DNA of 34,340 nt from Eubacteriales bacterium (lineage in GTDB: Bacteria > Bacillota > Clostridia > Saccharofermentanales > UBA5734): assembly GCA_028684955.1 (NCBI GenBank), contig JAQUEY010000011.1, forward strand, positions 1 through 34,340, written 5' to 3'. Of this stretch, positions 12,939 through 18,713 are shown piece by piece; position 1 is the stretch's first letter, and each line of letters begins with the position of its first letter. The notes under the pieces are model-generated. The model was given only the letters and a program-made list of their open reading frames with translations, made no database searches and was not told the DNA's origin. Both the position numbers and the translations under genes were made by a program.

Positions 12939-14036
12939 TCAGGGCAGCACGTGCAGACCGTTGGCGAGGTGGACCAGGAAATCCTGGACATTGGTGACAA
13001 TGCCGCGTGAAGAAAGGCTGCCGCGATCGGTCAGTTTATTGATCGTGAATTCGGAAATATCGACGATGTAGAAGTAGACCTCGCGGATGGTGCCATCGGG
13101 CAGCACGCGATAGGAAGGGGTCATGTTGCCGGTCGCGATGGCGTGCAGGGTCGTGGCCAGGCAGATAACGGTCGTTGCCTGGCTGGACAGGGCACGCATG
13201 GCATCCTGGCCGAGGTAGACGTCGGCATAGACTTCCGGCAGCGGCCCATCGTCTCTGACCGAACCGACCAGAACCAGTGGCACCCGGTTCTGGACACAGT
13301 GGTAAATGATACCATCCGAAATCTTCTCAGCGGCGATGAACTGCTCGATCGAGCCATGCCGCCGGACCCGGTTGATCGTGTCCAGATGATGGTAATGGCC
13401 GTGCTTGCGCGACTCCTGGGTGTAGATGTCCTGGCCAAGTGCGGTCTGGAACCAGGCGGCCTCAAGGTCATGTACGGCGAGGGCATTACCGGCCAGCAGG
13501 GCATCGACATAGCCGTGCCGGATCAGGCCGGAGAAGGCTTCGCGGGCATCGGCATCGAAGGAACAGGCAGGTCCGAGCACCCAGGTGATGTGGCCATGCT
13601 TGTGTTCATGGCGCAGCAGCTCGTAGATGAAGTCGTAGTCCATGGAAAAGGCTGTTTCGCGCGACCGCCCCTGGCGAAAAATGAAGGCATCCCCATTCGC
13701 ATCGGCCTGGCGGGGGAAACCGCTGGTATGGACGAAAATTCCGTCCCGGCCGTCTTCTGAGCGCCCGACAATAACAAGGTCACCTTGCCGGAGGTTGCGG
13801 AATTCCCGGACTTCGATCTGGCCATGTTCATACACGGCCACACAGTCCATGCGGCTTACCTGGGCGAGCAGCCATTGATCGCCGATCTTGAAATACTCTG
13901 GGAAAATGCTGGTGGCGTGGTACTGTTCCGGCGCGACACCGTCCTGTGGCGCTGGCTCGAGCCGGGCTGGCGGGGCGCTGTCCAGTTCTGGCGCGGAAAA
14001 ATCCGGTGGCTGATAGGGGGCCAGGGAAAAGTGCAT
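12939..14036 (-). CDS. LOR/SDH-domain protein (TIGR00300-like, ornithine cyclodeaminase-related)
   Basis: This 365-residue protein resembles the LOR/SDH-domain family, which includes archaeal-type ornithine cyclodeaminase and the C-terminal half of cyanobacterial AgrE/ArgZ, NAD-dependent enzymes that turn ornithine into proline. Recognisable segments are WVLGPACSFDADAR (152-165), LLAGNALAVHDLEAA (180-194), GHYHHLDTINRVRRHGSIE (213-231), GSVRDDGPLPEV (258-269) and ATGNMTPS (301-308). It seems slightly shorter at the N-terminus than typical ~400-residue members. The ATG at 14036 has AGGAGG upstream. It follows pdxT on the same strand after 60 bases, which contain their own possible -10 box. The assignment is from remembered motifs; substrate and reaction are not proven. 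Confidence 0.7.
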   Translation of the reverse strand: MHFSLAPYQPPDFSAPELDSAPPARLEPAPQDGVAPEQYHATSIFPEYFKIGDQWLLAQVSRMDCVAVYEHGQIEVREFRNLRQGDLVIVGRSEDGRDGIFVHTSGFPRQADANGDAFIFRQGRSRETAFSMDYDFIYELLRHEHKHGHITWVLGPACSFDADAREAFSGLIRHGYVDALLAGNALAVHDLEAAWFQTALGQDIYTQESRKHGHYHHLDTINRVRRHGSIEQFIAAEKISDGIIYHCVQNRVPLVLVGSVRDDGPLPEVYADVYLGQDAMRALSSQATTVICLATTLHAIATGNMTPSYRVLPDGTIREVYFYIVDISEFTINKLTDRGSLSSRGIVTNVQDFLVHLANGLHVLP

Positions 14037-14095: not shown

Positions 14096-14104
14096 ATTAT
14101 ATCA
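14096..14104 (-). promoter_or_regulatory. Possible extended -10 box for the LOR/SDH gene
   Basis: Read on the minus strand, TGATATAAT matches an extended -10 element (TGnTATAAT). It overlaps the pdxT stop codon and would start transcription about 50-55 bases before the LOR/SDH ATG. No clear -35 is seen. The gene may therefore be read both from the pdxST promoter and from this one. Confidence 0.35.
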
Positions 14105-14690
14105 GGCTTTGGGCGACCAGATCAGCGAAGGAGCGATGCCAGGCGGAATCGTCTGTCAGTTCAGGGTGGAAGGCGGTCGCCAGCAGGTGACCTTGCCGGG
14201 CTGCGACGATCTTGCCCGCGACGGTATGGAGAATCTCAACATCCGGTCCCGCCCATTCGATCCAGGGAGCGCGGATGAAAACCAGCTCAGTCGGCTTGTC
14301 TGATATAGTCGGAATGTGTGCAATCTGGCGGAAGCTGTCGACCTGGCGACCAAAGGCATTGCGCTGGACTTTGATATCCATCACCCCCAAGTGCGCAGGC
14401 TCGCCTTCGATTTCCCGGGCCAGCAGGATCAGTCCAGCACAGGTCCCCCAGACGGGAAGACCGGCCTGGATTTTTGCGCGCAAGGGTTCCAGCAGGTCGA
14501 ATGTTTTCAGCAACCGGGCGAGGGTTGTGCTTTCACCACCCGGGAGGATCAGGCCGTCAATCACATCCAGGTCAGCCGCACGACGGACTTCCTTGGGCAG
14601 GACATTGGCCAGGCCTGCAAGATGGGCCATATGCTCCGCCACAGACCCCTGCAAGGCCAGAACGCCGATCGTGACCGGTTTACCAGCCAC
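14097..14690 (-). CDS. pdxT: Pyridoxal 5'-phosphate synthase glutaminase subunit
   Basis: PdxT hydrolyses glutamine and channels ammonia to PdxS for vitamin B6 (PLP) synthesis. The ~197-residue product carries the class I amidotransferase triad: Cys84 in [12 protein letters not shown], His175 and Glu177 in AFHPELT. The oxyanion motif LPGGESTT is at 49-56. I place the start at the GTG at 14690, overlapping the pdxS stop by 11 bases and 6 codons before the first strand [14 protein letters not shown] at 14699 is also possible, and there is no ATG nearby. No good ribosome site is visible, suggesting translational coupling to pdxS. Confidence 0.94.
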
Positions 14691-15561
14691 GGGCGGCAAG
14701 CAACTGGCTGGCCGGCACTTCGCGGATGTCGAGGCCAGCCATCGACTCGCCGAGATTTTCGCTGACTTCGGCGAGGATTTCCGGGTCGTTGTAAAAAGCG
14801 GTGGCACGGACGATGGCTTTAGCCCTGGTCACAGGGTCGGCTGATTTGAAAATGCCTGAACCGACGAAAACACCTTCGCTGCCGAGCTGCATCATCAGGG
14901 CGGCATCGGCGGGTGTGGCGATGCCGCCGGCAGCGAAATTGACGACCGGCAGGCGGCCGTTCTGCGCTGTCCAGATAACCAGATCGAGGGGTGCACCGAT
15001 TTCTTTGGCAAAATTCATTCGCTCTTCGACCGGCAAGTGACTCAGGGTGCGGATTTCGCTCGCCATCGTACGCATGTGGCGTACAGCTTCGACCACATTG
15101 CCAGTGCCTGCCTCACCTTTGGTGCGGATCATGGCTGCTCCTTCACCGATCCGGCGCAGCGCTTCGCCGAGGTTCCTGGCTCCGCAGACAAAGGGTGCTT
15201 TGAAAGCGCACTTGTCGATGTGGAAGGTTTCGTCGGCCGGGGTCAGGACTTCGCTTTCGTCAATGAAGTCGATTTTCAGGGCCTCCAGGATCTGGGCTTC
15301 GACGAAATGGCCGATCCGGACCTTGGCCATGACCGGAATGGTGACGGCGGCCTGGATCTCGCGGATCATGCGCGGATCGCTCATCCGGGCGACGCCACCT
15401 TGTTTCCGGATATCCGATGGCACGCGTTCGAGCGCCATGACAGCGACGGCACCAGCCTCCTGGGCGATCACCGCCTCCTCGACGTTGGTGACATCCATGA
15501 TGACGCCGCCTTTAAGCATCTGGGCCAGGTTCTTGTTGAGGGTGAGTTGATCCTGTGACAT
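14680..15561 (-). CDS. pdxS: Pyridoxal 5'-phosphate synthase lyase subunit
   Basis: PdxS condenses ribose 5-phosphate, glyceraldehyde 3-phosphate and ammonia into PLP (DXP-independent route), as a dodecamer with PdxT. The 293-residue product has the usual length. Visible catalytic residues are Asp23 in GGVIMDVTN, Lys80 in [11 protein letters not shown] (sugar Schiff base) and Lys148 in [11 protein letters not shown]. The ATG at 15561 has AAGGAG about 12 bases upstream; a longer in-frame reading to 15633 adds 24 unrelated residues and is rejected. The gene diverges from a MocR regulator, with shared operator-like repeats between them. Confidence 0.97.
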
Positions 15562-15650
15562 CTTCAGAGACTCCTTTTTCTTGAATCTATGGCCGCACGC
15601 TGGTGGCTGACCTCGATGTGTTTGAAACGCCAATGGTGGTTTGCCCCAAC

Positions 15651-15715
15651 TTTATACGCAAACTGGCCTTATCAAAAGTGCCAGTTTGTGCTAATTTGAT
15701 ATGACCAGTTTGCGT
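15651..15715. promoter_or_regulatory. Operator-like repeats in the pdxS/pdxR divergent region
   Basis: Three copies of a CCAGTTTG(C/T)G element occur. Copy 1 is inverted, CGCAAACTGGC (15657-15667). Copy 2 is GCCAGTTTGTG (15680-15690) and copy 3 is ACCAGTTTGCG (15704-15714). Copies 1 and 2 form an 11-base inverted repeat with one mismatch. Copies 2 and 3 are direct repeats 24 bases apart. Copy 1 abuts TATAAA (minus strand, 15656-15651), a good -10 box for pdxS, and occupies the place of its missing -35 box. This is what one expects for activation of pdxST by a MocR/PdxR protein. Confidence 0.75.
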
Positions 15716-15771
15716 AGGGACTGGCAGGTAATCACAGTGCGCCGAGCGCTTGAACAAAGATCGGACCCTCT

Positions 15772-17298
15772 ATGAACATTCGCGAAAAAAGGCAGATCAA
15801 GCTCCTGACGTGGACGCTGGATCCAGGCTCCCAGGTTCCCATGTATGAGCAGCTTTGCCAGTTGTTGCGCCGGGAAATCCAGACCCATGTCCTGCCCCCG
15901 GGCAAGCGGCTGCCTTCCAAACGGGTGCTGGCGGCCCATCTGGGAGTCAGCACCATCACCGTGGAAAATGCGTATAGCCAGCTGGTGGCGGAAGGACAAG
16001 TTGAAACGCTGCTACGGCGCGGGTATTTTGTCCGAAAATCTTATGAGCCATTCGACAAGTCCTTCCTGAAAAAGCAAGCCAAGCTTGAAAAATCCGGTCC
16101 ACTCATAGACCGGTATAAAACAGCTTGGCAGCGAGAACGCGAAGCGCAAAAACCACCCGTGCTGGCCTGTGATTTTTCGACCAACAGAGTGGATACGGCC
16201 TCTTTCCCGTTTACCATCTGGGCCCGGCTGTCGCGCCAAGTTCTGCAGGAAGAAGGACGCGACCTGCTGGAGGTCAGTCCGCCACAGGGGGACGAACGGC
16301 TCCGGGCCAGTATTGCCAGGCATTTGCAGACGTACCGTGGCATGTCCTGTGATCCAGAACAAATCATTATTGGCGCCGGGAGCGAATACCTGTTCAGCCT
16401 CATCATCCAGCTGCTCGGACCAGGCAGGCACTATGCCATAGAAGATCCCGGCTACGTCAAAATCAGCCGGATTCTCGAGAAACACAAAGCTCAAGTCCTG
16501 CGTTTCGAAGTCGATCGCCACGGCATGTTCATCCACCCACTGGAGCTTGCTAAGCCAGATGTCATCTACCTGACTCCCTCCCACCAGTTTCCGACCGGGG
16601 TGGTCATGCCCTTGAAGCGACGGGAAAACCTGCTGCACCGCATCAATGGGTTTTATGATCATTACATCATCGAAGATGACTACGACAGTGAATTCCGTTT
16701 TTCCGGGCGACCCATTCCAGCCCTGCATAGCCTCGACCAACAGGGACAAGTGATTTACCTGGGCACCTTCTCCAAGAGCCTTGCCCCATCGCTGCGAATC
16801 AGCTACCTGGTCTTGCCGCCCCAGCTCCTGCTGCGATACCGTCAGGAATTAATGTTCTACGCCTCTACGGTTTCACGCCTGGAACAAATGACTTTGGCCC
16901 GCTTTATCGACGGCGGTTATTTTGAGCATCACCTCAATAAAATGCGCAGGATTTATCGCGAACGAAGGGATGCGTTGATTGCGGCCATCGAGGCCTGGCA
17001 ATTCCGGTCAAAAATCGAGATCAACGGCATCGAAACAGGCCTGCATCTGGTCGTGGTATTTCCTGCTGAAATTGGTGAAGAAGCCCTGGTGACTGCAGCT
17101 GCCAAGGTTGGAATCAGAGTCCATGGCCTTTTTGAATACACCTGGGATAATCCAAACCCGGAAACCCCTCCACGAGCAGCATCCAGACGTCTGGTCCGGC
17201 CGCCCACCCTGATCCTGGGATACGCCCATCTGACTCCGGAGGAACTGGTCGCAGCCGCAGAACGGTTGCATCAGGCCTGGGCTGGCCTGGTCCACTGA
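15772..17298 (+). CDS. pdxR: MocR/PdxR-type regulator (GntR HTH plus aminotransferase domain)
   Basis: The 508-residue protein joins an N-terminal GntR winged helix (about 20-90: PGSQVPMYEQL, PPGKRLPSKRVLA, LGVSTITVENAYSQLVAEG) to a fold-type I aminotransferase-like domain (about 130-500). The PLP-binding lysine is Lys335 in LGTFSKSLAPSLR. DPGYV (225-229) and EDDYDSEFR (301-309) are typical of MocR proteins. It diverges from pdxS-pdxT, so it is almost certainly the PLP-responsive activator of those genes and probably represses itself through the repeats between them. The ATG at 15772 lacks a strong ribosome site. No terminator is visible before the next gene. Confidence 0.9.
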   Translation: MNIREKRQIKLLTWTLDPGSQVPMYEQLCQLLRREIQTHVLPPGKRLPSKRVLAAHLGVSTITVENAYSQLVAEGQVETLLRRGYFVRKSYEPFDKSFLKKQAKLEKSGPLIDRYKTAWQREREAQKPPVLACDFSTNRVDTASFPFTIWARLSRQVLQEEGRDLLEVSPPQGDERLRASIARHLQTYRGMSCDPEQIIIGAGSEYLFSLIIQLLGPGRHYAIEDPGYVKISRILEKHKAQVLRFEVDRHGMFIHPLELAKPDVIYLTPSHQFPTGVVMPLKRRENLLHRINGFYDHYIIEDDYDSEFRFSGRPIPALHSLDQQGQVIYLGTFSKSLAPSLRISYLVLPPQLLLRYRQELMFYASTVSRLEQMTLARFIDGGYFEHHLNKMRRIYRERRDALIAAIEAWQFRSKIEINGIETGLHLVVVFPAEIGEEALVTAAAKVGIRVHGLFEYTWDNPNPETPPRAASRRLVRPPTLILGYAHLTPEELVAAAERLHQAWAGLVH

Positions 17299-17372: not shown

Positions 17373-18197
17373 GTGCCTGAGCTGCGTTTCACCACTTTTG
17401 CGATCGCCCAGGAAATCGACCTGAACAAGGTGGCGGATGCTTTTGGAATCCGCAAGAAATACACCTGGGAAGAAGCCCTCGCCCTGCCAGAACAAGTCCT
17501 GGGCCAGATCGATGGCTGGCACAGCCACGAGAGTGAACACGTCCTGCTTTTTTCCTTTGGCAGCATCGTTTTCATCAACTCCAACCGTGAGCATATGGAG
17601 CAATTCCTGGCTTTCCTGAAAAAGCTCGCGCCGGGCATCGATGCGGTCAACTACCGGGTGTATCGCGAAGATTATGCTTTGCATGTCGAGCCAGGCCAGC
17701 CGGTCGAATGCACCGACCGCTTCGTGCGCGTGCCGGTTCTGTTGCCGTATTATCCGGAGCTGGTGTCGACCGTCATGGCCAAATCAGCAGCTCTCGAACG
17801 AATCGAAGTCCAGCTGGAACCGATCCTTGACATCATCGAAAGCAAGCTCGACCGGCTCGAAAAAGGCCGCCTGGGCCTTGGGAACCGGGATCTGGCCCGG
17901 ACCATCGCCCGGGTCGTCCGGCACGAATACAACACCATCGCCTACATCATGATCCTCGACAAGCCCGACATCACCTGGACCAGCAGCGCTGCGGCCGATT
18001 TCTATGAGAAAATGGCCGACTTTTTTGAACTCACCGACCGCTATGAGGTGATCAAGAGCAAGACGGCAATTCTCGAGCGGATCCTCGATGGGTTTATGTC
18101 GATCAGCCACTCAATCCGGGGGCTTTTCGTCGAATGGGTCATCGTCCTTTTGATCGTGGTCGAGGTCATCCTGATGCTGCTTGATTTGCTGAGGTGA
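17373..18197 (+). CDS. DUF155 (RMD1/YagE family) membrane protein
   Basis: The 274-residue protein matches the DUF155 family (PF02582), which includes yeast Rmd1/Rmd8 and human mitochondrial RMND1. Visible hallmarks are HVLLFSFGSIVFINSN (about 56-71), a long helical middle, and the C-terminal block LTDRYEVIKSKTAILERILD followed by FVEWVIVLLIVVEVI, which ends in one membrane helix (about 252-272). The protein would be anchored by its C-terminus with the bulk in the cytoplasm. The bacterial function is unknown. The start is a GTG at 17373 with AGGAGG (17361-17366) well placed. The next gene begins 3 bases after its stop and encodes a shorter paralogue. Confidence 0.85.
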   Translation: MPELRFTTFAIAQEIDLNKVADAFGIRKKYTWEEALALPEQVLGQIDGWHSHESEHVLLFSFGSIVFINSNREHMEQFLAFLKKLAPGIDAVNYRVYREDYALHVEPGQPVECTDRFVRVPVLLPYYPELVSTVMAKSAALERIEVQLEPILDIIESKLDRLEKGRLGLGNRDLARTIARVVRHEYNTIAYIMILDKPDITWTSSAAADFYEKMADFFELTDRYEVIKSKTAILERILDGFMSISHSIRGLFVEWVIVLLIVVEVILMLLDLLR

Positions 18198-18200
18198 AAG

Positions 18201-18713
18201 ATGATGGCGGGGCAAGAACCCAGAAAGAGTCCGGATCGCGGTGTGATTGAAGCAGCTGCTCACGGTGGTGCAAATGCTCAGATCAGGGCGATTGTCGCGG
18301 AGCGAGCGCGCGAACTGGCCATAGCCGAAACAAACCTTGATGCGGTACTGGATGCGGTGGAACGGATGGTGAAGCAGCTCGGCCAGCGGCGTTTGTTTAT
18401 CCGCTCGCAACGGAATATCCGGCTGATGACCCGCGTCGTGCGTGTCCAATTCCAGAACCTGAGAGTTATCGAACCAGTGGCAATGCCTGGCAACGGCAAT
18501 TTTTCAACTCAATCGCAAAACACCTATCATGAACTGGCGGCTGAGTTTGATTTGCAGCTTCGCCAGGATCGCTTGCTGGAAAAAGCAAAACTCCTGGACA
18601 CGATCATGAGTAAAACAATCGTATCCAGGAGTCGATTGACGGAAAACTGGCTCCTGCGTTTGGAGATTTTGCTGTTGGCCCTATTCCCGTTGTTTCATTG
18701 GTTGTTTGATTAA
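18201..18713 (+). CDS. N-terminally short DUF155 paralogue, C-terminal membrane anchor
   Basis: This 170-residue protein is not obvious on its own, but it lines up with the C-terminal part of its neighbour (roughly residues 39-170 against 141-272). Shared positions include LDAVERMVKQL / LDIIESKLDRL, TRVVR / ARVVR, QDRLLEKAKLLDTI / TDRYEVIKSKTAIL and an E(N)W motif before a C-terminal membrane helix (about 150-168). The N-terminal FSFG part of DUF155 is missing and replaced by about 35 polar residues. The two genes are 3 bases apart, with GAGGTGAAAG upstream of the ATG. They look like a duplicated pair whose products may form a hetero-oligomer. Function unknown. The similarity was judged by eye. 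Confidence 0.7.
   Translation: MMAGQEPRKSPDRGVIEAAAHGGANAQIRAIVAERARELAIAETNLDAVLDAVERMVKQLGQRRLFIRSQRNIRLMTRVVRVQFQNLRVIEPVAMPGNGNFSTQSQNTYHELAAEFDLQLRQDRLLEKAKLLDTIMSKTIVSRSRLTENWLLRLEILLLALFPLFHWLFD

Follow-up and report, generated by a model that had tools for sequence, protein, structure and literature searches.

Two neighbouring genes of the DUF155/RMD1 family, the second of which lacks the N-terminal domain of the first, raise the question of what a bacterium does with a headless family member placed directly behind a complete one. This question was addressed at a locus in the window, that is, the whole stretch of 34,340 nucleotides that was analysed, which comes from a 2.7-Mb draft genome of 98.5% completeness. 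The features referred to below are listed by their position in the window.

17373..18197, + strand: gene A, 274-aa full-length protein of the DUF155/RMD1 family, GTG start (Pfam DUF155 match; 91% identical orthologues in three congeners)
17373..17747, + strand: predicted N-terminal alpha/beta head of A, residues 1-125, missing in B (predicted secondary structure, block pLDDT about 60-90 there)
18135..18191, + strand: C-terminal hydrophobic segment of A, residues 255-273 (hydropathy 2.90)
18191..18197, + strand: GAGGTGA, Shine-Dalgarno-like, overlapping the stop codon of A (read directly)
18201..18713, + strand: gene B-short, 170 aa, a DUF155 B-family protein without the head, ATG start (Pfam, profile-profile comparison and tree)
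18303..18569, + strand: helical DUF155 part of B, residues 35-123 (Pfam match below cut-off, profile positions 82-171)
18651..18707, + strand: C-terminal hydrophobic segment of B, residues 151-169 (hydropathy 1.85)

Protein B is a headless homologue of protein A

Protein A matched the Pfam family PF02582 (DUF155) with an E-value of 6.6e-25 and 88.7 bits (cut-off 27) over profile positions 1-173 of 174, and by its sequence is unambiguously assigned to the DUF155/RMD1 family; in a DUF155 search of the window's genome it was the only match at E 0.001 or better. Protein B alone reached E 0.01 and 16.4 bits, below the same cut-off, over profile positions 82-171 of 174, and of its orthologues in three congeners one scored above the cut-off (29 bits) and two below (22.7 and 22.3). 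BLASTP aligned A with B at 26% identity over 94 ungapped residues (E 9e-8, as one single comparison), and a profile-profile comparison of short B with the A family, the check proposed with the original prediction, was significant (E 1.2e-7). The homology and the missing head are thereby established, and the original prediction of a tandem DUF155 pair whose second gene is without the N-terminal domain is borne out by open reading frames, BLASTP, Pfam and profiles. The near-gapless alignment that it had drawn to A residues 141-272 stood as ungapped homology, its range being slightly generous beside the BLASTP match at A 145-238. The predicted membrane helix of B likewise has its counterpart in the hydrophobic segments found at the end of both A (255-273) and B (151-169). 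These alignments show B to span the helical part of the family and the membrane segment, and only A stands before it. In NCBIfam, PHROGs and PADLOC, A had no match and B a single chance match, well below its cut-off; phage records gave no match, and plasmid records one, from Nostoc, at 24% identity under the record name RMD1 family protein.

The open reading frames confirm that the two genes lie on one strand with 3 bases between the stop codon of A and the ATG of B. A second in-frame ATG of B at 18204 would give a gap of 6, like that of two congeners, so that GAGGTGA is spaced 3 bases from the first ATG and 6 from the second. GAGG ahead of the B start is kept in four genomes of the genus, and translational coupling of A and B via the GAGGTGA at the A stop is likely from this layout. 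Fusion of A and B by read-through was ruled out, since the frames of A and B differ in many relatives.

Short B groups with B proteins that are full-length elsewhere

Relatives of B outside the window's genus were considerably longer, 32 full-length B proteins measuring 263-308 residues against the 170 of short B. The hhalign comparison of short B with this full-length B family gave E 5e-17 over 143 columns, and its membrane tail is closer to the B family tail, of the LFPLFH type, than to that of A. A tree of the C-terminal domain was built from 109 of 146 proteins, after 37 of the 52 A rows without an intact B had been dropped at random; its solo set comprised 22 of 27 single-copy loci, with L028, L039, L042, L043 and L056 left out. 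B together with short B was recovered with branch support 100/100, A with 100/98 and the solo proteins (S) with 97/85. Within B, short B was drawn with the proteins of Desulfosporosinus and Sedimentibacter at a fork supported 93/93, of length 0.012 and below the tool's star, so its placement there is unsure; its long stem (2.87) and unusual composition also call for caution about its position in the tree.

These data bear on the reading that B arose by a recent partial tandem duplication of A in the window's genus, which its adjacency to A on the same strand and the gap-free similarity would fit, but which is very improbable: B grouped at 100/100 with full-length B of other families, short B was closer to the B profile than to the A profile (E 5e-17 vs 1.2e-7), and a constraint placing short B with its own genus's A was rejected (p-AU 0.003, for a group that was named after the tree was seen). 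Tree and profile place short B with the second subunit found in full length in other Bacillota, not with its own A as a copy of it, and the separate ancestry of A and B is established. The original description of B as a headless relative of A thus stood in its homology and in the lack of an N-terminal domain, although B is no truncated duplicate of the adjacent A.

Distribution of the pair

The close relatives searched comprised 39 genomes, of which 5 belonged to the window's genus, 18 to other genera of its family and 16 to other families of its order. A and B were both present in 4 of the 39; these four belong to the window's genus, and in each the two genes lie side by side. No match to either was found in the fifth genus genome (G004), in the 18 family members of other genera or in the 16 order members of other families. 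The survey of relatives proposed with the prediction thus found short B adjoining A in 4 of 5 genus genomes searched, which establishes conservation of the pair; that other members of the family lack it suggests that the pair was gained by transfer. The window's A clusters with the A proteins of Desulfosporosinus and Sedimentibacter and with a few more (100/94, starred), and the placement of both A and short B near these two genera agrees with the pair moving as a unit.

Wider samples of 291 class and 398 phylum genomes, with the window's genome counted in both, contained DUF155 matches in 13 and 28 genomes, respectively, the match of class genome G218 lying only below the cut-off. Two copies were found in 6 class and 5 phylum genomes, and in all 11 the copies were neighbours on one strand, with the downstream copy scoring lower. 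Reading of the loci distinguished two kinds, solo proteins on the one hand and, on the other, a separate A type with a diverged B behind it; B next to a solo protein was not seen in the loci read. Among single-copy loci above the cut-off in both samples, none of 27 was a B (22 fell in the tree as one S clade and 5 were judged by eye), although a lone B, if much diverged, could escape the Pfam search.

Genome contigs were then scanned with an A profile, and the best 80 of 170 relatives were used as A-type loci. Of these best 80, 25 carried a full-length B directly downstream of A, 3 had a short B there and 1 a frameshifted one, and in 51 no B was seen; the 3 short-B loci are congeners and 4 of the 25 full-length-B loci are class-sample genomes, all of them already covered by the searches above. 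Hosts of full-length B include Desulfosporosinus, Sedimentibacter, Acetivibrio and Paenibacillaceae, and the 51 B-less loci are mostly Bacillaceae genera by title. Three of the 51 (L132, L142 and L145) end too near A to judge, leaving 48 with downstream sequence and yet no B beside A. The frameshifted gene is that of Acetivibrio straminisolvens JCM 21531 (L090:5826-7000), a draft assembly in which the shift is perhaps a sequencing error. In a whole-genome search, five genomes with B-less A had one DUF155 protein each and four pair genomes had two each. Together with the 48 B-less loci, the five single-DUF155 genomes indicate that A does not need B everywhere.

The occurrence of A without B in many loci would suit the reading that B is an independent membrane protein sharing only an operon with A, a possible but doubtful explanation, against which stands the finding that none of the 27 single-copy loci above the cut-off in the two samples was a B.

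Gene neighbours were surveyed with mechanically called ORFs in the same best 80 of 170 relatives, an antisense ORF displacing A in L067. Besides A and B, the largest clusters of shared neighbours reached 15 of the 80 loci and at most 6 of the 29 pair loci; with no cluster above 6 of 29, the neighbours give no hint of a translation role. In the window's genus a MocR-type regulator lies upstream of A in three of four pair genomes, the fourth contig beginning just before A. At 14097-17298 of the window, pdxT- and pdxS-type genes (SNO, SOR_SNZ) are divergent from the GntR/aminotransferase regulator directly upstream of A, a MocR-type protein that we take to be PdxR-like. A 365-aa protein encoded at 12939-14036 (− strand) matches only C-terminal regions of an ArgZ-like arginine dihydrolase, with PF21570 matched and PF21571 below cut-off. 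Of the congeners, G001 has A, B and the regulator and no match to the uracil-DNA glycosylase found beside A/B; in G004, which has no A/B match, the MocR-type regulator is matched only partially and the glycosylase not at all.

Selection and conservation

Among the four genomes of the genus, short B, counted from its second ATG, had dN/dS values of 0.17-0.30 in all six pairs at pairwise dS of 0.75-1.31, and A in the same pairs 0.05-0.07. The last 39 codons were the most constrained part of B (pN 0.02-0.10 vs pS 0.31-0.78 over the six pairs) and the first 30 codons were weakly constrained. Short B is under purifying selection, strongest in the membrane tail. Its missing head, its faster evolution than A and its weakly constrained first 30 codons are what might be seen if short B were a decaying remnant of a second subunit no longer needed in the genus; this reading is nevertheless unlikely, because short B is open in all four genus genomes with A despite such dS values, its dN/dS stays at 0.17-0.30, its last 39 codons are nearly fixed and the GAGG ahead of its start is kept.

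In 32 full-length pairs the mean p-distance was 0.61 for B and 0.35 for A, and the A and B distances were correlated (r 0.956; 0 of 2000 permutations as high), in line with an interaction, although adjacent co-inherited genes correlate in distance anyway. Within A, conservation is lower in the head (p-distance 0.45) than in the helical part (0.27), which counts against the head as the chief functional part. A and solo proteins share 45 near-invariant columns; B deviates from them at positions that include E14, K29, Y101, W202, R249 and G250, whereas G63, S138, E145 and R223 are retained in 94-100%, although the alignment near the membrane segment may be a few residues off. Comparison of 37 paired with 51 B-less A proteins revealed near-fixed differences at positions 30 and 189 only, and a residue signature telling paired from B-less A did not extend beyond these two; this little sign of A adapting to B is in favour of an independent B.

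Predicted structure

Single-chain A-stop-B models, made from alignments of 10 rows, had a mean pLDDT of 64.7 and pTM of 0.45 for the window and 74.9 and 0.44 for Desulfosporosinus hippei; an A-B interface could not be read from them, another point for an independent B. In both, an alpha/beta head of about 125 residues is followed by helices, the last of which is long and runs through the hydrophobic segment; full-length B repeats the plan of A, and short B consists of helices only. What remains of B in its most reduced form is precisely the helical part together with the membrane helix, which argues against B acting apart from A.

With either model, Foldseek returned nothing at E 0.001 or better among the matches listed; solved structures gave no match to A at E up to 1, and the solo profile matched none of them at an E-value under 0.17. 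CorA, MRS2 and ZntB recurred in structural re-alignments, some from head to membrane helix, with best Z of 10.7 and 9.9 among the matches listed; these values are below about 13, under which the tool advises caution with helical models, and may reflect a common helical arrangement only, and an unrelated BAG-domain chain tied with the CorA-type fold matches at Z 10.2. Profile similarity to CorA/MRS2 reached E 0.026, 0.049, 0.32 and 0.12, and the CorA value of 0.12 was beaten by reversed DUF155 (0.0086), by reversed CorA (0.019) and, among 20 block shuffles, by at least 8 (best 0.0057). With HMMER, 17 members together matched 21 families, CorA being matched once, at 0.15. Kinship with CorA by sequence was rejected, as profile support was lacking and controls scored better. 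Apart from this, the DUF155 head (model residues about 1-105 and 280-385) showed recurrent fold matches to one half of the TATA-binding protein, with a Foldseek probability as high as 0.99 (E 0.14) and Z up to 7.9, too weak to interpret.

A candidate membrane hetero-oligomer

From the adjacent genes, their co-inheritance and the selection on the tail, which indirectly support the hetero-oligomer suggested in the original prediction, we infer that A and B assemble, and we lean towards a membrane hetero-oligomer in which B would give stalk and anchor and the heads of A would bind. A and B would then be the two subunits of a paired DUF155/RMD1 form, A contributing alpha/beta head, helical stalk and C-terminal membrane helix, and B being a fast-evolving paralogue that in the window's genus is left with stalk and membrane anchor. 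Short B would be made by a coupled start right after A, and the two would co-assemble through their helical stalks and membrane helices, presumably at the inner face of the membrane. The A heads may bind, with B setting their spacing or number or regulating them, a division of labour that is the least certain part of the proposal.

Comparison with known systems

CorA and MRS2 have two transmembrane helices with GMN between them. The pair resembles CorA, MRS2 and ZntB in how its parts are predicted to follow one another (an alpha/beta head, then long helices, of which the last enters the membrane), and weak fold matches point the same way, but it differs from CorA/MRS2 in that its proteins have one hydrophobic segment, no GMN after it and no profile support. 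Across 146 proteins, hydrophobic segments (hydropathy ≥1.6) numbered one in 139, none in 3 and two in 4, and GMN occurred in 2, both times within the N-terminal head. It is improbable that DUF155 proteins, RMND1 included, have the CorA/MRS2 architecture without the pore, with A-B as its hetero-oligomeric version and short B as a headless stalk and anchor diluting the heads of a ring.

Solo bacterial DUF155 proteins of the same phylum have the same domains as A, the first sequences of the two profiles being 36% identical; they differ in forming their own clade (97/85) and in having no B beside them in the loci read. With the PF02582 family (RMND1/Sif2-Sif3/Mrx10), A shares profile positions 1-173 of 174 and a C-terminal transmembrane segment, present in A by hydropathy; such a segment is described for a plant DUF155 member and drawn for human RMND1. 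A role of RMND1 in translation or ribosome anchoring is proposed in PMC5264221, and mutations in human RMND1 cause mitochondrial disease. A literature search that excluded preprints and covered few subscription papers found no description of a bacterial DUF155 protein, its biochemical function or a paired form; the family is already known, and the paired form with a headless partner is a variant not found described in that literature. The locus differs from PF02582 as known in its two-gene A-B form with a diverged partner, headless in the window's genus. With its natural headless partner, such a two-subunit form sets stalk and anchor apart from the head, which suggests the helical part plus membrane helix as the unit of assembly; in cultivated hosts, e.g. 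Desulfosporosinus and Paenibacillus, it opens oligomerisation in the family to direct testing.
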